Source of the DNA: Elusimicrobiota bacterium
GTDB taxonomy: Bacteria > Elusimicrobiota > Elusimicrobia > Elusimicrobiales > Elusimicrobiaceae
DNA length: 64,000 nt
Reading direction: 5' to 3'
Assembly (NCBI GenBank): GCA_029008615.1
Contig: JAQXJI010000006.1
Coordinates: forward strand, 167,159 to 231,158
Below the pieces are notes generated by a model. The model ran no database searches. It was not told the origin of the DNA and saw only the letters and a list, made by a program, of their open reading frames with translations. The translations under genes were made by a program, and so were the position numbers. This document shows positions 8,742-58,900 of the stretch, one piece after another (the first letter of the stretch is position 1; each line of letters opens with the position of its first letter).

Positions 8742-8835
8742 ATATAAAACGCTCCTCCGGCAGAGCGGTTTAAGAGTCCGCCCCCGGTATAAAATATTTA
8801 AGCCCGTCCCGCTAAAGCAAGGCGGCAAAAACAAG

Positions 8836-9181
8836 TGGAGGCGGCGGGATTCGCACCCGCGTCCAAACATCCATACGGCACGGTTACTACAGGTTTAGCT
8901 TCGGCTTAAAAACGCGCCCGCATACCCGAAGCCGTTGCTTGCGCGCTTGTTTATTTTATCTTAGGAAGGGTTAGGCTAAACGAACCTTCCCTTCAGCATC
9001 CGGCTGATTTGACCGTTACGCTCCGCCCGCCGGCGAAGAAGAGCAAACGGGTTTAGGCGGTAGCCCAAACGTTGTTGTTGTAGTTGTTGCCAACTAATTG
9101 TTGTGGCCCTATTTTAACCGGCCTGGCCAACCGGTACCTGCAACCGAACTTCAGAGATATCTGTCGAAACTGGTCGCCCCC
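8836..9181 (-). ncRNA. ssrA: tmRNA; CCA not encoded; predicted tag (A)GNNYNNNVWATA
   Basis: 5' GGGGGCGACCAGTTTCGACAG, 3' TTCGAA-type T arm GTGCGAATCCCGCCGCCTCCA, acceptor stem GGGGGCG/CGCCUCC, tag ORF at 9053-9091 ending GCC TAA. Confidence 0.93.
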
Positions 9182-47807: not shown

Positions 47808-50384
47808 TTATTCATAAGTCAAAATTCCGCAGAGGCAAAAGTTTTTGGCTCCCGCGTTTTTTATTATTATTTCCGGCGCGTTTGAAAGCAGTTTCTCTTC
47901 CCTGTTTAGTGCCCTCATGCGGCTTGCCGACGGCATGGAAGTTTCCAGCTCCCCGCAGTAAAAAGAGGAGTCCTTTTCGGCCGTGGCCTCGCTTAAAGCG
48001 CGCATATTGTTTTCGTCCTCGCCGTAATAAAAATCCTGAGTGTTAAACACCTGAAACACGTTCTTAACCGCATTAACTCCGTCCTTTTCTTGTGCGCCGG
48101 GGTATTTGGGCACCAAAACGGCTTTTACGTCTATATCAACCCCGGCGAAAGCTTTTAAAGCCGCGTCGAAAGGTATTTTAAGGGCCGATATATCCGCTTT
48201 TGCGCCGGGCGCGGCCGATATTTTAAAGGAATATTTGCCGTAAACGCCCGTTAAAGTTCTGCCCGCCGGCGGGGTAAACATTTTTTGCGGCAGAGTAAGT
48301 TCTTTTACGTATTTTTCTTCGCCGTCGGGCGTAACCGTCAAAGGGGAATAAAACTCCAGCGGCGGGCGGGAATTTGTTTTGTCGTAAACGTCGCGCATTT
48401 CTTCAAAGGCAAGCCACCTTCCGCCGTAAACGCCGGCCAGTCCGCTTTCGTCGCCGTCTTTGTCAAAGTTCATAACGGCGTCGCCCAAAGCCAAGCCCAG
48501 AGTATCGTTTAAAAACGCGCCTTTCGTTCCCTCGTTGATATCCAAAAATAAAATTCTGTGCGCGCCGCTTTGCATTCTTATCGAAAGCGCGTTATACGGG
48601 TGTTCTAGGGGGAAGACGTCACTTATTTTCTCCTTAAACTGATACTTGGCCAGTTTCAGCAAATCGTTTTTAAGATAAGCGTTTGTTTGGAAGTTGTACT
48701 GGCTCAAATATAAATTTTGTCTGTCTTTGCTTACGTAAATAATATTTCCGTCCGCGTCGGCGGGCAAAACCGCGCTTGCGGCGGCCGTGGCTATAAACGG
48801 CGCGGTGATATTGGTGTTTGTAATAACGCCGTCGTCCGGGGCGTAAAGACGCACAAGGCCGTTGTCCGTACCGGCGACCAAAGCCGCGCCTATGCGTTTA
48901 ATCCAGTTAATGCGGGCGAACTCGCTTTGTATAATCATTTTAATAGAGCATTCCGCGTCAACGATACCGTAATTAAAATCGCTGAAGTTAAGGTAATCGT
49001 CGCTTTGGCTCAGGCAGATGCAGGGCCCCTCGGCGGAGTTGTAGGAAAACGCCAGCCTCCCGTCGATAAAATCCACGCAGTTGGGGTAAGTTACGCCGTC
49101 AACCAGCCCAAGCCGCCATTTATAGGTTTTTATTTTGTCGGGCATATAATCAATTACCAAAGCTTTCACTTTGTAGGGGGAAACATACTCGGTAATCAGC
49201 GCGCGGCCAAAACCGCTGTGCAGGTATTTAAACATCAGTCTGCCGTCGGATACCGTACCCTCGGTGTGTTTCGGCTGGCTGTAACCGGCCTTGCCCGCTC
49301 CGCTTGTTACTTTGTAATAATTTTCTCCGCTTTTAACCACGTCGTTAAGCGCATAGCCCTCGCTGTCCATGCTCCAGCCTTTTGTGGCGGCGTCAAAATA
49401 TTTAAGCTGTATATACTGCCCCTGCATATCCTCGGTAAAAAAGGGCAGGCCCTGCCCGCCGGTCTGCGTAAAGGCCGAGTTCATCGTAAAAACGGTTTCT
49501 TCCAGCGTTTGGGCGTTAAGCACTTTAATTGTGCAGCTGATAGCCTTGCCGGAATAATTTACCGTATTCGAAGCGGCCGTAACGGTCTGCGCGCTTACGT
49601 TTCCCTGCGCCTGCAAATCGGTGTTTGCGCGTAAAAGGTAGCTTACGGCCATTTCGGCGTTTACGTTTAAATCGGGCAGGTTTTCAAGCGCGGGGCCCTC
49701 GTTTTCGCCAATGGTCCAAACAATGCTTTTTACGCTTTCGCCCGAAGCCAGCTGATAAGGCTGCAAAGCCAAATCGGCGGCGGGGTTTTCCGCGGCGGAA
49801 GTCAAAGTTATATTCCCGCTCACGCCGGAAGCTTCAATAAGCCGGCCTTTATTGGTGTTAAATTCTTTCCACGGCCCGTTATTAAAGGCGACGGCGTTAT
49901 AAGTCCAAGTTTCCCGCGCATAATATTTTACTTGGGCGAAGGGGTAATCCTCGTGGGCCAAATAAAGCACGTTTGCGCTTTGCTTGCTTCTAAGGCGTTT
50001 TATTCCTTTTAAGTCAAACAAATCTTTTGCCAGGTAAGGCGCGCTTATTTTTAAAGGCGAACCGTCTTCAAGCCGGATAAAATCAAAGCTTTCCAAATCA
50101 AAGGGGGCAAAGCCTCCGCCGTAAAACACAAGCAGGTATTTTATATTTCTTGTGCTGTTAAAGCTGAACAGCGCAAAAGGCCCGCTTACGCCAAGCTCGG
50201 TTTGCAGATCGGCCAAAAAGCGTTTGCCCGCGCGGTTAAAAAGCGCGCCGCTTTCGGTGGCGTAAACGTTTTTGCCTTCGCGCAGGTGGTTTTGCAAAGC
50301 CTCGTAATCTGCGCGGCTTTCCACGGTCGGGTCAATTTCCCCGTAAATAAAATTAAACTTTTGGGAAATCAGCTTTCTTCTCAT
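47808..50384 (-). CDS. Phage tail nozzle/stabilisation-like protein
   Basis: 858 aa; MRRKLISQKFNFIYGEIDPTVESRADYEALQNHLREGKNVYATESGALFNRAGKRFLAD N-terminus resembles podoviral tail nozzle proteins. Confidence 0.6.
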   Translation of the reverse strand: MRRKLISQKFNFIYGEIDPTVESRADYEALQNHLREGKNVYATESGALFNRAGKRFLADLQTELGVSGPFALFSFNSTRNIKYLLVFYGGGFAPFDLESFDFIRLEDGSPLKISAPYLAKDLFDLKGIKRLRSKQSANVLYLAHEDYPFAQVKYYARETWTYNAVAFNNGPWKEFNTNKGRLIEASGVSGNITLTSAAENPAADLALQPYQLASGESVKSIVWTIGENEGPALENLPDLNVNAEMAVSYLLRANTDLQAQGNVSAQTVTAASNTVNYSGKAISCTIKVLNAQTLEETVFTMNSAFTQTGGQGLPFFTEDMQGQYIQLKYFDAATKGWSMDSEGYALNDVVKSGENYYKVTSGAGKAGYSQPKHTEGTVSDGRLMFKYLHSGFGRALITEYVSPYKVKALVIDYMPDKIKTYKWRLGLVDGVTYPNCVDFIDGRLAFSYNSAEGPCICLSQSDDYLNFSDFNYGIVDAECSIKMIIQSEFARINWIKRIGAALVAGTDNGLVRLYAPDDGVITNTNITAPFIATAAASAVLPADADGNIIYVSKDRQNLYLSQYNFQTNAYLKNDLLKLAKYQFKEKISDVFPLEHPYNALSIRMQSGAHRILFLDINEGTKGAFLNDTLGLALGDAVMNFDKDGDESGLAGVYGGRWLAFEEMRDVYDKTNSRPPLEFYSPLTVTPDGEEKYVKELTLPQKMFTPPAGRTLTGVYGKYSFKISAAPGAKADISALKIPFDAALKAFAGVDIDVKAVLVPKYPGAQEKDGVNAVKNVFQVFNTQDFYYGEDENNMRALSEATAEKDSSFYCGELETSMPSASRMRALNREEKLLSNAPEIIIKNAGAKNFCLCGILTYE

Positions 50385-53300
50385 TAATTATTCCTCCGTT
50401 GTTTTTTGCGGCGTTTTTTGGTTTTCTTCTTTTTCTCCCCGGTCATCTGCCCGGCGCGGTATTCGGTGTAGCCCGCCGCCCTTAAAAGGCCTTTTGCGGT
50501 TTTGCCGTCAAAAACGTCTTTAACTCCGCCGGCGGCGTTAAGCGCTGTCTGCGCCGGCAGGCCGGTATATTTAAGCAAAGCCGCCAAAGAGTTTATGCTG
50601 TCCGTTAAGCTCATTTCGCCAAGCAGCTCTTCCAGCCCGCCGGCGTCGTTGTAAGCTTTTACGGCTTTATTGACGTCGCGCTGTATGTCTTCAAAAGCGG
50701 GCATGGCCACGCTTGAGGGCGCGGGCAGTTTTTGGTTTTTGCTCTTGGCGTAAACGGCGTCCAAAAGGTATTTAACGCCGGCTTCGGCAAAAGCGTTTAC
50801 GGAAGCCAGCCCGGTAATTGGGGAAGCCAAAACGTCAAAAACGCCTTTTTGGGCTTTTTCCTCGCCGTCGTCGTCCTTGCCGGGGTAAAGCCAGGCAAAG
50901 CCCAAAAGCGTATAAATCATGGGGTTTAAAGCGGCGTATAAAAGCCACGTCTTGCCGAAATCCGCGGCGGAAATTTCCCCGTTTTTATACTGTATGTAGC
51001 TTGTCGCCAATTTGCCGAAGTACTGCTTGCTTTGGTTCCTGAACACGGTATAAATGCGCGCGGCGTAATTATCGGCATTGGCCTGATACTCGCCCAGCAA
51101 AGCTTTTTGGGAGCTTTGCAAAGTGCTTTCGCCCTGTTCTTCCACTTTGGCGCGGGCCTCCTGCGGGGAAAGTTTTAAATCCTCCGTCAAATATTTATAA
51201 TAGGGATACCCGCCGTAAACAAAGCTTGCCTTATCGCCCCAGCGTATATTAAACATCAGCGCGTTTGTAAGGTTGTTCCAGCGGGTTTGAAGCAAATTCA
51301 AATCGCGGGCGGCCATGGCGCGCTGCAAACTTTCGTTTATCGAACCTTGGGCAAAGCGCACTTCTATATGCGGCACGTTTTTAAGCATAAAATCATAAGT
51401 GGCTTTAGGCTTGGCCATACCTTCCAAAAAGTATTTGGCCCAAATATGAAAAGGCATTTTTTCGGCAAAGCTTATCCCGGTGGCAAACTGCTTTGCGCCG
51501 ACGGTGGCCTTTAAAGCCATCGCGCTTTTAACCCACCCGTTGAAGATAAACTCCATAACCGGGCTTGAACCCGCGCTCTTCTTTATTTGCGGGCCCTGCA
51601 AATCTATCAGGCGCAGAAGCTTGTCGTAAAGTTTTTTGCCGTCTTCGCGCCCGGCCGCGCTTTCAAAAGCTCTTTCTATCTTTTCGCTTTTAAATACGCC
51701 CTTTATCAGATTAAAGGTCAAAGCCTCATTTATATACTCGGCGGCGCGGTTGGTGTGGTTTTGCACTATTTCAAGAATGCTTGTCGGCTTCATGGCGACG
51801 CGGAAGCTTTTAACTCTTTTTTTAATAAAGCTCGGGTTCGCGCTCGCGTTTATGTATTGTTTAATATAATCCGTGTCGCCGCCTATATCCATGCGCCTGG
51901 CCACGCTGGGCAGATAGTTAGGGTCTTGCGGCAGGGAAAATCCGTGCATTTCCCTGAAAACGGCGTTTTCCCTCGCCCATTGTGCGGCCGTAAACTGTTG
52001 CAGTACGTCGGCAAGGCGTTTTTCCGCCGGGGTCAAAAGGTTAAACATTTGCTCCAGCTGGTTCTGCCCGTATTGCCTTAAAAGCCTGCCCCTTAAGCCG
52101 TAATCAACAATGCTTCCGTCTTCGCGCGTTTCGGGCTGGGTGTTTTTATACCATTCGTAAACGCTCATTATTTCCAGTTTGTTAAGGTCGTCTTGGTCTA
52201 TATCCTGCTCGGCAAGCCATTTGCCGTCTTGCAAAATTCTGGCCTGCTCCGCGCCGTCGGCCTCGTTAAGGGCGCGCATATAGTTTTCCGCCGTAAATAC
52301 GGTTTTTTGCAGTTCCGCTATTTTGTTTAAAACCGCGCCGTTGCTTTTAAGATCCAAAACCGTGCGGAAGATATCGTTTAACTGCCGGCCCTTTTCATAT
52401 TTGTAAAGGGCGGTGCCTCTTTGGCCTTGTAAAGTGTCCAAAGCGTCGGCGAGGTTCGTTTTGGTTTTTACCAGTTCGCCGTTTTCGTTTACTTCTTCAT
52501 GCTCAATAACGCCGAAAGCGTTTAAAAGGAACTGCTTATAATTGGTATCGGGCAGGTTTAAAAACCACTTTGCGCCAAAGGGCAGTTTTCTGTTTCTTAA
52601 AGCTTGGTTTAAAGCTTCGCGCAGGTATTCGCGGCTTAGCTGTTTTCTAAGTTTTTCCCTTAACTTGTTGGCGCGGCCGGCTTTTAACAGGGCGGAAACG
52701 TCCTCAAAAAGTTTTTGGCTGTCGGCGGGGTTGTTCTCCTTGCCGTTAACCAAAAATTCCAAAACGCCGTTTAAAAGGGCTTCTTCCACGGGGTAAATAT
52801 CGCCGTTTTGTACGGCGGCCATGGCCTTATCCTGCCGCGCGTTTAAAATAACCTGCAGTTCTTCCGGGCTGTAAGGCTTTGTACGCGTGTTGAAAGTATT
52901 TGATTTTTCAGCTATAATATCATTGTCCCCGTTTAGCAACGGTTTAAAAGCCGTGTCTCTGGCGGGGATAACTTTTTGCCCTGCGTAATTTTTATTATAT
53001 TTGGCTATTTTGCGCTTGACAAAATCTCTCAAATCTCCTAAATTATCTATATGCGGAAGATGGCCGAAGTTCGCTTCGGAGGGACCTTCCGCATTTGAAG
53101 GCTGTTGTTGGCCAGTTTCCATATTGGGGCTGGAGTTACCGACAGCCTTCTTTTTTTCTTCCGTTTGCAAATTGTTTTTCTCAAGCGTAAGATCGGGCTT
53201 TTTTAAACCCCAGTATTCCCGCGCCTTTTGCAAAAAGTCAAAAGCCCTTTGGCTCAGTTTGGCTTTTTTGACGTTGCCGCTTTTCTCAAAAGCTTTGCGT

Positions 53301-56300
53301 TTAAGTTCCGTGTCTATCTTGCGCCAAATATAGCGGTTGTAATTTTCCTTTTGGGTTTTCTTCGCCCAAGCCATAAGCCCGTTAATCTGCTGGTTTAAAG
53401 ATTTTTTAAAATGGCTCACGGTCCCGGCGGTATGCGCTATCATGCGGTTTACGTCCGCGGGGGATAAATGCTCCTCTCCGCTTAAAGCTTTTTGCAAAAC
53501 GGCGGTAAGGCGGGGGGTAAAGTTCTCTTTTAAAAAAGCCTTGGCGCGGTTTGCGGCGGCTTTTTCTTCCTCGGTCAAAGCGGCGCGGTAGCCAAGCTTT
53601 GCGCGGCTTTCTTCTTCCAAAACGGCTTGGGCTTGGCGCGTTTTTTCTTCCGCGTTTTGCATTAAGGCGTTTATCTCTTTTAAAACTCCGGCCTTTTTTG
53701 CGCCCCAGTCCGTTGCGGGCGCGTCCAGCTTGCGCCTTTCGGCTTTGCCCTCTTCGGTCTTGGCGTATTCGGCTTCAAGCTTTTCAAGCAGTATCCCGGC
53801 CGCGTCTAAAATATCCTTGGCTTCTTTGGCCTCTTTAAGTTCTTTAAGCAGGGCCTCTTTATTTTCAATTTCGCGCTTGTTAATTTCGCTTATAACGGCT
53901 TTTTTAACGGCGCGCGCCCGTTGGTTGACTTCCCGCTCCTTTTCGGTTATACTTTTATTATCAGACGCAAGAGCAGAAAGGACAGCTGCCCCTTGAGGTT
54001 CACTCCTCTCGGTTATGAGGAATTGTCCGTCCTCGCGTCTGGTAAATCTTTTATTATCAGACGCAAGAGCAGAAAGGTGAGCTGCCCCTTGAGGTTCACT
54101 CCTCTCGGTTATGAGGAATTCACCGCCCTCGCGTCTGGTATTTTTTTTGTAAAGTTCCACTCTAGGCCTGTCTATTTTTAAAAAGCTTACCACCTCAAAA
54201 TTATCTTTATTTTCAGCCATTTCCAATACGGCGCTTTGGCCTTTTTCGTTTTCCCGCAGGAAAGTAAAATAATTCGGTTTGGTTTTAGGTTTTACCTGCA
54301 AAATGGCCGTCGCGCCGTAAAGGGCTTTTGCCAATATTTCGTTATATTCTTCCGTCGGTATTTCCGGGTGGCGCTTTTTTTCTTTCTCGATAATATTCTT
54401 TTTAAGCACCACGGGCTTGCTCTTTTTGTTTAAAAGCTTTAAATCGGCGGTGTTTAAAGGCGGCAGAATGCAGTCCTTTGAGGGGTTTTTATAATTTTCC
54501 GCGTCCGGCATTTCGCTTTCGGTAAAAGCTTTAAGCTTTTCTTCAAACTCCGCGCGCGCGGCGGCTTTGGCTTTGTGCAAGTCCTCCTGGCGTTTGTCGG
54601 CGGTATTTTTCCACGCCTCGGCCTCTTTGCGCGCTTTTTCTATTTTAGGGTTTAAAGCGTCTTCGGCTTCTTCCCGCGCGGCCTCCTCCAGCTCCTCAAT
54701 TTGGGCGGCCACAAAATCTATGTCCTTTGCGCTTACGGGCCTGTAACCCTCAAGCCTTAAGCCTTTTATTATATCTTTGACGCGGCGGTACTCTTCCATC
54801 TTCCCGCCCAAAGCGTCTTCCGCGGTTTTGGCCGCTTCCATGTAAGCTTCAAACTGCTCCACGGCCGGCAAATCTTCCAAGCGGTAAACGTCTTCCCCGT
54901 TTAATGCGCGCTCTATCATTTCAGCGGCTTCCCGGTTAAGGCGGTTTAAATCTTCATAAGTGTCAATCTCGCCCGCCAAAAACCCCCAGTCAATCAAACG
55001 CCGCGCCAAATCGTCGCCTATACCGCCTTTGCGGTTTGGTATTCTTGCGTTTTTGTAAGCTTCCGCGTCCACCCTGCCCGCGCCGGCGTAATTCGCGCCG
55101 TATTTCCTTAAATAAGTCCTCAGCGTTGCTTTGGGCAAAGGCGGCGCGCCCATGTCCAAAACGGAAAGATACTCTTCAATATCCCGCAAAGTAAGGCCCT
55201 CAACGTCCGTCTTGCCCTCTTCGCGCAGCTGTTTTATGGCCTTGCGCGTCTTCTTGGTTTTAACTTCGTCTTGGTAAAGTTTTAAATGCTCCTCAACATC
55301 CCGCCCGGAAAGTTCAAACATCCTGTCGTAAACGGCGCGGCCCGCTTCGCTCATTTCCACAAGCGCGCCGTTGTAAATATCCATAAACCATTGGCGTATT
55401 TTTTCAAAAACGCTTTTTAAAGCCGGGGCGGGGGCTTTGCCTTCCATAAGGTACGTTTCAAGGCCCTGTGCAAGCTTTTCCTGCTGTGCGCGCGTATAAA
55501 CGTAACGCCCCGCTTTAACCTGCGGTTTGCCAAGCCACTCGTCCAAATCTTTTTTAGTTTCTTTAAATTCGTCTTCGGCGTAAATATCCTGTGCGGTGTA
55601 AAGCCACAAATGGCCCAGTTCGTGCAAAAGAGTGCTCTTGTCGCCGGTCTGCATTATCTTTACAAGCGCATAATAAACGTTTCCTTTTTTGCTCAAATCT
55701 ATACTGCCGCGCTTACCCTGCCCGTACCGCTTGACAACGTCTTCCTTGGTTGGTATATTATTAAAGAAGCCGTCGGCTTTGTTTCCCTTGGGCGATTGTA
55801 GCTCTTGCGGCCTTACAAATTCGGCGGCTCTCTTTTCGTCCAAATATAGCAAATTTCCGTTTTCAATATTATTTTTTACAAAAGCTGTAAAATTATTGCG
55901 GCCATAAACGCTTGGAATAATATTTATCCCCTTATTTGCAGGCTTTAATATTACCAACGCTTGCCGTTTGCTTTCGTCTTTTGCGTCTACCACGGCCACC
56001 AAATTGCCCGGAACGGTTGCGGATTTAAACACCATTATAGGGTTGTAGACCAGATTCGGCAATCTCCGCATATCACCCATTTTCATATTGTGTTTGTCTG
56101 AAACCGCTTTTCTCAAAACCGTTACAGGTAAATTTAAAGAACCTTTTGGCAGACCCATATCCAAATATATTTGCGGAGTACTTCCCACTTTTATTAGCTG
56201 GCCGCTCTTGAGTTCGCCCTCTTCGGCTTTTTTTAAGTCTTCCTCATATTTTCTTCTGTCTTCCGCGGAAGGCGTAAAAATATCTTCCGCTTCTTCTTGG

Positions 56301-58900
56301 TTAAAAGAGGTCTTTTCTTCCTGCGGGATGTAACTGTTGAAATCCTGCTCTTGGCTCAGTTTCCTGTTTAAAGCGTTTTCATATTTTGCAAGCCTTGCTT
56401 TGTCTTTTGCCCCGTTATAGGCGAAATCCTCCCATTTTGCATATCCCGTTTTAACGGCCCCGCTGCTTTCCTTTCCGTCCAAAGTCCATTCGTTGGAAGA
56501 TACTTTTCCCCAGTGGTCTGCCTGTCTAAAAACCCCGTAATCCTCATACCAGTATTTGCTTGAGCTTGCAGACACAAAATCCGGGGCTCTGCTTGGAGCC
56601 TGAGCCGTTTTAAAATCGCCTGTTGTTTTTCTGTAGAAGTTATCTTTATTGTAGGTTCTGCTTTCTCTGGCGTTTATCCTTTCTTTAAATCCGTTTGTAA
56701 TATTTATAATTTCACTTGCCGGTTTTTGTTCGATATTCTTTTCAAATTCACTGTTGACAATATCAACAATATCCGATAAACTATTAATTAGACCGGGAGA
56801 CACGGCACTTGCTTTTAGTGTACGCATCCCGGCGAGTTTTTTTATAGGCGCGTTGAGCTTCGCTTTTTCCAAAAATATTTTCCCGCTTGCGGCAATTTCC
56901 ATTAAAGTGTTTAAATCGCCTTTTGCGGTCTTAATACTCAAAACAACTCTTATTCCGTTATAAGCCCCGCTGCCTTGCAGTATTTCATAATTTTGGATAT
57001 CGGGGTGTTTTAAACTATTTTCTATTAATTCCAAGTCCTCCGGGGAAATTTTTTTATTGTCGCCGCTTATAATTCTTTCCTGCGGGACGGTTATATCCTC
57101 TTCACCATTTATAACGTAATATTGTTTGTTGCGTTTTTTGCTGGTTTCGGCGTATTGTTTAAATTCCGCAAGGCTGTTTGCTCTGCTCTTATACATCGCG
57201 GCGGCCTGCGCGTAGCTTTCCTGCGCGGCGGGGGGCAAATCCTCCGCTTGGCGTTCTATTTTAAAGTTTAAAAAGCTTTCGGCGGTTTTTGGCAGAACTT
57301 TGTTTTTCTTGGCTATGTTATCTACGATATTGGCCAAAATGCGCCCGGCGGCCTGCGCTTCTTCCTCTTTCGCGCCGTTTTTCCTGAGGGCTTCCTCATA
57401 CCCGGCGGAAATATCAATAAGCTGTTTGGTGCGGTCCTTTTGTTCGGCAATGGCGGCCTCAAGGTTTTGGGATACTTTGTTTTTGTCAAAATCTGGGTAA
57501 GTCATGGGGCTCATTTCTTTAATCAAAGGGCCTGTTAAATCGCGGACGAAGTCCTCGCTTAAAATCTCCCCGGCGGTTTGCTCGGCCAAAGCGCGGGCTT
57601 GTTCCTCGGGAAAACCGGCTTTTTGCAAATCGCTTTGCACTTGGCCCATGGTTTTAAGCACGCTTGCGCCGTTAAAAGCGGCGCCGAAGCCGCCGCCCAT
57701 AACCGCGCCCCAAACAAAGCTCATAATGTTTTTTTGCAGGATATCGCCCAGCTTCTCATTTTGCACGCCGTAAGCGTTTTTAATAAGATCCGTGCCGGTA
57801 TCTTGGATATATTCCTGCGCGCCCTCCGTAAACGCGCCGGCGGCCGTAACCGCGGCAAAGCGCGCGGGCAGGTTTTTAGGCGCTTTGGCCATAATTCTGC
57901 CTGCGGCGTTGGCTATAAGATTATTGGCTTTAATCGCGCTTAAATAAGTTTTAAGGCCTATAAGCTCCGTCGCGCTTATCCAGGCCGCGTCGGTAAAGCC
58001 GGCGGCTTTGGCCTTTTGGTAGGAAAGCCCGGCCTTTAAGCCCTCGCTCGTAGTATCGCCAAGCTGCATGGCCCCAAAAAACGCCGCCCCGGCCGAGGGA
58101 TTCTTTGCAAGCACGGTTACGCCTATCGCGCCCAAAAGGCTCATGGCGGCCTGCGTGCCCTCGTAAACAAGGGCCTCGTCGGGCCTTGCGCCGGCTTTAA
58201 GGTTCGTCCCCGTTTTTTCAATTACGCTTTGGGCGAAGTCCTCAAACTGTTTAAGGGCAAAAGCCGTTTCTTTGTTTCTTTTTTCAGCGTCCAGCTTAAG
58301 CCCGTTTTCCCAAATAGCTTTGGCTTTTTCGGGCATAAATTCGTAATCTTCCGGCGCGGGTTTTGCAAAAGCTTCTATGGCCGTGTCGCCTATTGTTACA
58401 AGCCCCTCAAAAACATTTTTTAAAGCGTTCATGCTCCAGTTCGCGCCGGCTTTAAGGGCGGCGGCGGTTCTTTGGACTTCCCCGTTTAAGGCCGTTTCTT
58501 TAACTTCCTTAGGCCCGGCCAAGAGTTTTACTGAGGGGAATTTAAAAACTTCCGCCATACCGCTGTTGATAATATCCCCGGTTTTGACGTCAAGCTTTTT
58601 CAGGCCGAAGAACCTTTCTTTGGGCACTTCTAAAGTCTGCGTCAAAAGGCCGTATTCGGCTTCGTCGGGGTCGGCCAAAGCGGTGGTAAATGGTATCTTC
58701 CTTTTAACGTCCCAAATGCTTACCGGCTTTTCTTCCGCCGGCAGCAAATCCAAGGGGCGGTTATTGTTGCCGTAAGCGCGCACTTTATCAAGGATTTTGC
58801 CGTTTTCGTCCCGGCGCACGCGGAAAATTTCTCCGTTTTCCTGTTCGGTTTTGTAGCTTTTAAGATAATCGTTTAAAGGTTTTAAGAAATCATTTTCCAT
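50384..58900 (-). CDS. Giant polyvalent/internal virion protein (2838 aa)
   Basis: Single uninterrupted ORF; HELGHLW metallopeptidase motif, MuF-C-like region, PBECR-like region, long helical segments, C-terminal hydrophobic region. Confidence 0.75.
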   Translation of the reverse strand: MENDFLKPLNDYLKSYKTEQENGEIFRVRRDENGKILDKVRAYGNNNRPLDLLPAEEKPVSIWDVKRKIPFTTALADPDEAEYGLLTQTLEVPKERFFGLKKLDVKTGDIINSGMAEVFKFPSVKLLAGPKEVKETALNGEVQRTAAALKAGANWSMNALKNVFEGLVTIGDTAIEAFAKPAPEDYEFMPEKAKAIWENGLKLDAEKRNKETAFALKQFEDFAQSVIEKTGTNLKAGARPDEALVYEGTQAAMSLLGAIGVTVLAKNPSAGAAFFGAMQLGDTTSEGLKAGLSYQKAKAAGFTDAAWISATELIGLKTYLSAIKANNLIANAAGRIMAKAPKNLPARFAAVTAAGAFTEGAQEYIQDTGTDLIKNAYGVQNEKLGDILQKNIMSFVWGAVMGGGFGAAFNGASVLKTMGQVQSDLQKAGFPEEQARALAEQTAGEILSEDFVRDLTGPLIKEMSPMTYPDFDKNKVSQNLEAAIAEQKDRTKQLIDISAGYEEALRKNGAKEEEAQAAGRILANIVDNIAKKNKVLPKTAESFLNFKIERQAEDLPPAAQESYAQAAAMYKSRANSLAEFKQYAETSKKRNKQYYVINGEEDITVPQERIISGDNKKISPEDLELIENSLKHPDIQNYEILQGSGAYNGIRVVLSIKTAKGDLNTLMEIAASGKIFLEKAKLNAPIKKLAGMRTLKASAVSPGLINSLSDIVDIVNSEFEKNIEQKPASEIINITNGFKERINARESRTYNKDNFYRKTTGDFKTAQAPSRAPDFVSASSSKYWYEDYGVFRQADHWGKVSSNEWTLDGKESSGAVKTGYAKWEDFAYNGAKDKARLAKYENALNRKLSQEQDFNSYIPQEEKTSFNQEEAEDIFTPSAEDRRKYEEDLKKAEEGELKSGQLIKVGSTPQIYLDMGLPKGSLNLPVTVLRKAVSDKHNMKMGDMRRLPNLVYNPIMVFKSATVPGNLVAVVDAKDESKRQALVILKPANKGINIIPSVYGRNNFTAFVKNNIENGNLLYLDEKRAAEFVRPQELQSPKGNKADGFFNNIPTKEDVVKRYGQGKRGSIDLSKKGNVYYALVKIMQTGDKSTLLHELGHLWLYTAQDIYAEDEFKETKKDLDEWLGKPQVKAGRYVYTRAQQEKLAQGLETYLMEGKAPAPALKSVFEKIRQWFMDIYNGALVEMSEAGRAVYDRMFELSGRDVEEHLKLYQDEVKTKKTRKAIKQLREEGKTDVEGLTLRDIEEYLSVLDMGAPPLPKATLRTYLRKYGANYAGAGRVDAEAYKNARIPNRKGGIGDDLARRLIDWGFLAGEIDTYEDLNRLNREAAEMIERALNGEDVYRLEDLPAVEQFEAYMEAAKTAEDALGGKMEEYRRVKDIIKGLRLEGYRPVSAKDIDFVAAQIEELEEAAREEAEDALNPKIEKARKEAEAWKNTADKRQEDLHKAKAAARAEFEEKLKAFTESEMPDAENYKNPSKDCILPPLNTADLKLLNKKSKPVVLKKNIIEKEKKRHPEIPTEEYNEILAKALYGATAILQVKPKTKPNYFTFLRENEKGQSAVLEMAENKDNFEVVSFLKIDRPRVELYKKNTRREGGEFLITERSEPQGAAHLSALASDNKRFTRREDGQFLITERSEPQGAAVLSALASDNKSITEKEREVNQRARAVKKAVISEINKREIENKEALLKELKEAKEAKDILDAAGILLEKLEAEYAKTEEGKAERRKLDAPATDWGAKKAGVLKEINALMQNAEEKTRQAQAVLEEESRAKLGYRAALTEEEKAAANRAKAFLKENFTPRLTAVLQKALSGEEHLSPADVNRMIAHTAGTVSHFKKSLNQQINGLMAWAKKTQKENYNRYIWRKIDTELKRKAFEKSGNVKKAKLSQRAFDFLQKAREYWGLKKPDLTLEKNNLQTEEKKKAVGNSSPNMETGQQQPSNAEGPSEANFGHLPHIDNLGDLRDFVKRKIAKYNKNYAGQKVIPARDTAFKPLLNGDNDIIAEKSNTFNTRTKPYSPEELQVILNARQDKAMAAVQNGDIYPVEEALLNGVLEFLVNGKENNPADSQKLFEDVSALLKAGRANKLREKLRKQLSREYLREALNQALRNRKLPFGAKWFLNLPDTNYKQFLLNAFGVIEHEEVNENGELVKTKTNLADALDTLQGQRGTALYKYEKGRQLNDIFRTVLDLKSNGAVLNKIAELQKTVFTAENYMRALNEADGAEQARILQDGKWLAEQDIDQDDLNKLEIMSVYEWYKNTQPETREDGSIVDYGLRGRLLRQYGQNQLEQMFNLLTPAEKRLADVLQQFTAAQWARENAVFREMHGFSLPQDPNYLPSVARRMDIGGDTDYIKQYINASANPSFIKKRVKSFRVAMKPTSILEIVQNHTNRAAEYINEALTFNLIKGVFKSEKIERAFESAAGREDGKKLYDKLLRLIDLQGPQIKKSAGSSPVMEFIFNGWVKSAMALKATVGAKQFATGISFAEKMPFHIWAKYFLEGMAKPKATYDFMLKNVPHIEVRFAQGSINESLQRAMAARDLNLLQTRWNNLTNALMFNIRWGDKASFVYGGYPYYKYLTEDLKLSPQEARAKVEEQGESTLQSSQKALLGEYQANADNYAARIYTVFRNQSKQYFGKLATSYIQYKNGEISAADFGKTWLLYAALNPMIYTLLGFAWLYPGKDDDGEEKAQKGVFDVLASPITGLASVNAFAEAGVKYLLDAVYAKSKNQKLPAPSSVAMPAFEDIQRDVNKAVKAYNDAGGLEELLGEMSLTDSINSLAALLKYTGLPAQTALNAAGGVKDVFDGKTAKGLLRAAGYTEYRAGQMTGEKKKKTKKRRKKQRRNN
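53952..54139. repeat. Two tandem 96-bp units, each with an 80-bp palindrome, in frame in the giant ORF
   Basis: CAGACGC...GCGTCTG at 53962-54041 and 54058-54137; compensatory GGAC/GTCC versus GGTG/CACC. Confidence 0.9.

Follow-up and report, generated by a model that had tools for sequence, protein, structure and literature searches.

A candidate cloverleaf RNA gene antisense to the end of a nuclease-like domain in a phage polyvalent protein, and its possible role as an RNA antidote

Introduction

Among described systems, the closest to the element reported here are the type III toxin-antitoxin (TA) systems ToxIN, CptIN and TenpIN, in which RNA and toxin share an operon, the RNA lying upstream and a terminator separating the two (PMC5086642). 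The locus that we describe is a pair of palindromes in a 64,000-nucleotide stretch of an Elusimicrobiota bacterium genome (assembly GCA_029008615.1, contig JAQXJI010000006.1, positions 167,159 to 231,158; hereafter the window). Like type III systems, it combines an RNase-type protein, here a predicted one, with a small RNA held together by loop-mediated tertiary pairing, and it shares with them possible tandem RNA units, a promoter that drives the RNA and a U-tract at its end. The RNA differs in being a cloverleaf of about 80 nucleotides (nt) with kissing loops instead of an H-type pseudoknot repeat, and the nuclease in being a predicted BECR domain inside a phage polyvalent protein.

Phage polyvalent proteins with PBECR and LPD domains, the class to which the host protein in the window belongs, were described by Iyer et al. 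(2017, PMC5512222). That survey treats PBECR and MuF-C as predicted BECR-fold RNase domains of polyvalent proteins, for which packaging and injection are envisaged, and a term search of its text returned nothing on an RNA gene at the domain ends.

Results

The palindromes lie in a minus-strand open reading frame (ORF; 50384..58900) that encodes a giant phage polyvalent protein of 2838 aa, in which Pfam recognises two domains, MuF_C at aa 934-1026 and LPD13 at aa 1460-1582. All coordinates are positions within the window; the ORF (sense) strand is minus, and the strand on which the element appears to work (antisense) is plus. The repeat consists of two tandem units of 96 bp (53945-54040 and 54041-54136) that share 92% identity, and each holds one 80-bp palindrome (53962-54041 and 54058-54137) with the ends CAGACGC and GCGTCTG. 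The palindromes differ at five positions, four of which (21/22 against 65/64) make up two fully compensated pairs, the fifth being position 69. A preliminary description of the locus had given these palindromes, their coordinates, the tandem units and the five differences, and had noted that both strands are open over the repeat, with the corresponding minus-strand peptides; all of this was found to be correct when re-read from the sequence. It had also placed the insert just after a PBECR-like domain, and the BECR-RNase-like LPD13 domain indeed ends six residues before the palindromes, which begin at aa 1588. The element can lie in frame within coding sequence, as had been proposed. Fold z-scores for the two palindromes were -3.6 and -5.0 on the minus strand and -2.0 and -2.2 on the plus strand; because of these scores, together with a structure that covaries across phyla, we consider the palindromes to stand above chance.

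An alignment of 22 elements revealed a conserved fold of about 80 nt, a cloverleaf with two or three hairpins inside an outer stem. The outer stem is followed by an adjacent 4-bp hairpin, a variable and at times missing hairpin, and a second 4-bp hairpin. The loops of the two 4-bp hairpins are joined by a kissing pair of 4 bp. Changes on both sides were seen in 23 of the 31 pairs, and paired cells amounted to 88.0%, as against 70.9 ± 1.0 in shuffles and 40-48% in slid controls. Every pair of the outer stem (columns 7-18 with 85-96) is variable and covarying, and RNAalifold independently recovered this stem and both 4-bp hairpins. For 13 further members outside the model, 86% pairing was found against 55 ± 2%, on an alignment fitted to the covariance model and for the nested helices, the kissing loops being drawn from the 22-element alignment. 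The preliminary description had pointed to compensated changes between GGAC/GTCC and GGTG/CACC; the compensation is real, but it belongs to a kissing contact between loops and not to a simple hairpin stem. The architecture outlasts the sequence: one locus (L057) keeps all of it, including the kissing loops, in an unrelated sequence, and another (L079) has the same architecture in a different sequence. A strict descriptor of the architecture matched behind 13 of 25 LPD13 domains, as compared to 3 of 500 shuffles and 69 of 1500 background windows.

Read on the antisense strand, the order of parts is that of a tRNA (the outer stem, a short joint and a 4-bp arm, then 1 nt, the middle arm, 4-5 nt, another 4-bp arm and the outer stem again), and the loops of the first and last arms touch as they do in tRNA; unlike in tRNA, the contact is Watson-Crick and the middle arm is dispensable. 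A tRNA search of the window with ARAGORN and Rfam did not recognise the palindromes, ARAGORN reporting only a transfer-messenger RNA (tmRNA) at 8.8 kb, and no covariance model of Rfam release 15 matched the element above its gathering score. The element looks like an undescribed small RNA gene, of a family that Rfam does not contain.

An ordinary protein repeat was rejected as an explanation, since identity in the DNA of the core (86%) far exceeds that of LPD13 nucleotides (51%) and non-coding copies keep the fold. Third-position identity is likewise 0.79 in the element (0.70 in the half unused for the search) against 0.50 in the LPD13 domain; the element-encoded peptide also occurs in other phyla. 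The earlier suggestion that selection acts on the nucleic-acid fold over the peptide is thereby well supported, by covariation as well as by DNA and third-position identity beyond that of the LPD13 domain. An integron-like attC site was rejected as well, the outer arms being the most variable part of the element and the core the most conserved.

The window carries, on the plus strand, the candidate parts of such an RNA gene. A sigma-70 promoter at 53925..53953 (-35 TTGACT at 53925-53930, 17-nt spacer, -10 TATACT at 53948-53953) is the sole promoter-like site in 53700-54400 (shuffles 0.5 ± 0.8), and its -10 box ends 8 nt ahead of the first stem. RNA unit 1 (53960..54045, the transcript start being placed from the -10 box; 102 bits with covariance model R1) has, by the comparative fold, an outer stem at 53962-53968/54035-54041, hairpins at 53973-53976/53986-53989, 53991-53999/54004-54012 and 54017-54020/54031-54034, and kissing loops 53980-53983 (GGAC) with 54025-54028 (GTCC). 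A linker (54046..54057) leads to RNA unit 2 (54058..54137; 89 bits with R1), with its outer stem at 54058-54064/54131-54137 and, again by the comparative fold, kissing loops 54076-54079 (GGTG) with 54121-54124 (CACC); no good promoter precedes this unit, the best candidate being TTGTCC-16-AATCTT. Directly after the last stem comes a run of eight T (54141..54148), likely the intrinsic terminator of the antisense transcript. The opposite-strand promoter and U-tract had not been considered in the preliminary description. A same-genus genome (G008) has a single unit at the same place; it is identical to the window over a 91-nt block (54048-54138) and over about 38 nt of promoter-side flank with the promoter within, and outside these blocks 139 of 150 positions are identical on the LPD13 side while the other side falls to about 65%.

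Four tests (promoters, U-runs, wobble asymmetry and fold energetics) argue strongly, at the level of sequence, that it is the antisense strand on which the element works. Promoters and U-runs were scored in 39 elements, where the mean promoter score was 9.06 on the antisense and 6.96 on the sense strand (p = 1.2×10−5; shuffled 7.11 ± 0.16), and the U-run after the hairpin averaged 5.90/8 against 3.38/8 (p = 1.5×10−7). Several promoters of other elements are TTGAAA-17-TATACT or TTGACA-based. In the Bacteroidota copies the sigma-70 promoter is replaced by TAnnTTT[GA] at the start, present in 11 of 13 copies (shuffled 1.3 ± 1.1) and in none on the sense strand; the TAnnTTTG box is the Bacteroides-type promoter consensus. 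For the sense strand, A.C combinations exceed G.U by 17:4 (0 of 2000 shuffles), which means wobble pairing in the antisense RNA. In 20 of 22 elements, the antisense version of the conserved cloverleaf comes closer to the minimum free energy than the sense version, and among the solitary non-coding copies alone the bias in promoter and U-run is seen again. We consider it very probable that the palindromes represent a small, structured non-coding RNA gene of the plus strand in two tandem units.

The domain next to this gene, LPD13 (54155..54520, minus strand; aa 1460-1582; Pfam PF18825, E = 1.7×10−22), has a homologue that resembles PBECR2 (E = 2×10−5), and its structure model (pLDDT 92) matches MuF-C proteins with TM 0.65-0.73 and HigB/RelE toxins weakly. 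Linkage between element and nuclease recurs elsewhere. A BECR-type nuclease domain precedes the coding copies that have enough upstream sequence to check, and when LPD13 loci were collected by the Pfam profile alone, the RNA adjoined the domain in all except one divergent case. Profile matches to LPD13 in other families of the phylum are likewise followed by the element, with quite different, fully compensated outer stems. PBECR3 domains in Prevotellaceae also carry the RNA, and one locus (L158) has two successive PBECR3 units with apparently one each. The covariance-model search that the preliminary description had called for recovered members beyond the training set (L075, L112, L077, L076, L078, L131, L132, L133, L137, the PBECR3 loci and L171), the majority immediately after an LPD13 or PBECR3 domain, along with solitary intergenic ones. 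In stand-alone LPD13 genes (L077-L079) the RNA lies mostly past the nuclease stop codon, and at L090 the LPD13 frame apparently ends within the RNA; because of these cases we regard the peptide from the element as incidental. No LPD13 or PBECR3 was found by tblastn in named phages and plasmids, a search for PBECR2 in the order was uninformative and gave nothing, and a search for MuF_C relatives in viral contigs also gave nothing. A different conserved hairpin (AAAAGGGA...TCCCTTTT) spans the stop codon of small PBECR3 genes (L149-L153) and may be another RNA type.

Related family members had been expected elsewhere, and matches to the core pattern came from viral contigs as well as from genomes classed as Elusimicrobiota, Margulisiibacteriota, Prevotellaceae and other Bacteroidota, Alphaproteobacteria, Verrucomicrobia, Lentisphaerae and Riflebacteria, among others; 4 of the 20 genome matches (L092, L102, L107 and L108) are without structure and probably due to chance. 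Element-bearing genomes that were checked have 1-4 copies each, and a search of the host genome for the 80-bp unit gave no copy besides the tandem pair of the window. Solitary copies are intergenic and keep promoter and U-run. Two of them (L137 and L096) adjoin an apparent 3' scrap of LPD13 and look as if the nuclease had been lost and the RNA kept; a search of five genomes and one virus record that have solitary copies gave no LPD13. Another solitary copy, on the minus strand at about 5806-5907 of L091, lies some 40 nt after a ParE toxin gene and close to an integrase gene.

Further candidate antisense units occur in the giant ORF, all on the plus strand. A second type (unit E, 53016..53095) consists of TTGACA-17-TAAATT followed by ATGCGGAAGATGGCCGAAGTTCGCTTCGGAGGGACCTTCCGCAT; it is kept at L055 with TTGACA-17-TAAAGT, where the inner hairpin (CCGGAG/CTCCGG) is compensated and the tail is rich in T. 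There it follows a domain that is absent from the corresponding place in the window, where unit E may be a solitary RNA, possibly left after domain loss. A third unit (C, 55731..55830), at the 3' end of MuF_C, has TTGACA-17-TATATT and then a hairpin, its RNA extent being uncertain; both hexamers are kept at L059 with a different spacer. A fourth, weaker candidate (B, 52890..52980), read in the window alone, has TTGAAA-17-TATAAT and a stem TGTCCCCG...CGGGGATA with TTTTT. The ORF shows no excess of promoter-like sites as such (12 against 7.7 ± 2.9), so that weight can be given only to units with conservation in homologues. At 56754-56782 and 51174-51201 the plus strand has two additional promoter-like sites, opposite the ORF and with no clear hairpin. 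In viral contigs, the DNA pattern for NIPQ-x4-VN/VK matches mostly by chance, with strong stems in 3 of 5 long-ORF matches (two of these three near-identical), so that the idea of a promoter footprint in the protein sequence of other polyvalent proteins is no more than a lead. In the phage giant ORFs L230, L187/L210 and L226, an antisense promoter-like pair, together with a stem upstream, coincides with the NIPQ-x4-VK tail. The tmRNA gene lies at 8833-9181 (minus strand; tag GNNYNNNVWATA); the window takes in host chromosome next to the prophage.

Discussion

The reading that we favour, with a probability of roughly 0.45, is that the element, encoded inside the toxin gene, protects against the linked phage RNase as a type III-like RNA antitoxin or as an immunity RNA. 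Comparison of sequences shows the fold and its strand, the promoter with the U-run, and the linkage to BECR-type nuclease domains across phyla; that the RNase is blocked is what we infer from these. The constitutive-looking sigma-70 promoter would start transcription at the first stem and the T8 run would end the transcript, whose units would each fold as a tRNA-like cloverleaf with kissing first and third hairpin loops and might be processed in the manner of ToxI repeats. The RNA would then bind and block its own RNase, shielding the lysogen, and bacteria with solitary copies, from the toxin domain, while the antisense overlap would hold RNA and nuclease together as domains shuffle among polyvalent proteins. 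An RNA antidote of the linked RNase would fit nuclease loss with RNA retention, the tandem units, and a tRNA-like topology that faces a family including tRNA-cutting enzymes. The pseudoknot-type tertiary pairing that marks the small RNA of type III systems is represented here by covarying kissing loops in the cloverleaf. We nevertheless do not file the element as type III, because the gene order differs and neutralisation is inferred.

Several points weigh against an antidote. The RNA is antisense to the nuclease, downstream of it and overlapping its coding 3' end, and no described type III system is so arranged. The RNase call for LPD13 is based on weak sequence similarity and fold likeness, with fold matches in the PDB at E of at least 0.1, and a PDB search for sequence relatives of LPD13 found none. 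A divergent LPD13 (L080) is without RNA, the divergences of RNA and LPD13 correlate modestly (Mantel r = 0.24, 73/5000), and most loci have a single RNA unit and not tandem repeats (two in the window, one in G008). In addition, the elements are partly related, hence the p-values of the strand tests are optimistic.

A broader and more tentative proposal is that each RNase effector domain of polyvalent proteins ends with its own antisense RNA antidote gene, several to an ORF, which is shuffled with the domain, can outlive it as a solitary immunity RNA of bacterial genomes and leaves an NI-x-V[NK] tail as its footprint; this is possible, at a likelihood clearly below even.

A real antisense RNA gene could also act by base pairing, silencing or destabilising the nuclease mRNA in a type I-like manner, for example through RNase III cleavage or colliding transcription at the 3' end. 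As in type I TA systems, a predicted antisense RNA overlaps a putative toxin gene (an arrangement known here from the genome sequence), with perfect complementarity in cis to the nuclease coding 3' end and a strong convergent promoter. Unlike in those systems, however, the fold is covarying and trans-capable, and the partner is a BECR-like domain of about 120 aa and not a small hydrophobic peptide. The stems, kissing pair included, covary by compensation within the molecule, solitary copies without a cis target still keep the fold, and the RNA of the stand-alone LPD13 genes lies mostly after the nuclease stop codon, all of which makes base pairing an unlikely mode of action.

Somewhat less probable still is that the RNA serves the nuclease as cofactor, decoy or substrate, for example as a ribonucleoprotein cofactor or as an RNA that is packaged along with the polyvalent protein for injection. 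The conserved unpaired core and the tight linkage to BECR-type domains would agree with this, as would the packaging and injection envisaged for polyvalent proteins in PMC5512222; however, solitary copies in genomes without detectable LPD13 would then be partnerless, unless they act on an incoming nuclease.

The proposal of the preliminary description, a mobile palindrome of REPIN or Rickettsia palindromic element (RPE) type that inserts in frame, now appears very improbable. The element resembles RPEs, REPINs, repetitive extragenic palindromic (REP) sequences and miniature inverted-repeat transposable elements (MITEs) in being palindromic and in occurring both in frame within ORFs and between genes, and RPEs are known for in-frame insertion (PMC10969869). 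It differs from them in its low copy number, in its fixed position after BECR-type domains in coding copies, and in the promoter and U-run at its ends; its outer stems vary among copies, and we found neither dispersal in unrelated genes nor terminal inverted repeats of one sequence. No transposase or empty site was detected, nor any other relative of the L084 site, and the window and G008 differ by one unit. Finally, a fold that works in the sense mRNA (in pausing or stability), with the antisense promoter signals a by-product of coding constraints, would suit the stable long hairpin on the sense strand but can be largely set aside, given that wobble asymmetry and fold energetics both speak for the antisense strand, that promoter type tracks host lineage and that solitary non-coding copies share the promoter bias.

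If the RNA is indeed an antidote, a class of widespread phage effector domains without known immunity would have RNA antidotes of their own on the opposite strand of their coding sequence, which would explain the conserved tails, without a function in the protein, behind such domains. It would also show how a toxin domain can move among giant proteins with its antidote retained, and the solitary RNA genes of bacteria would represent immunity to injected phage RNases.
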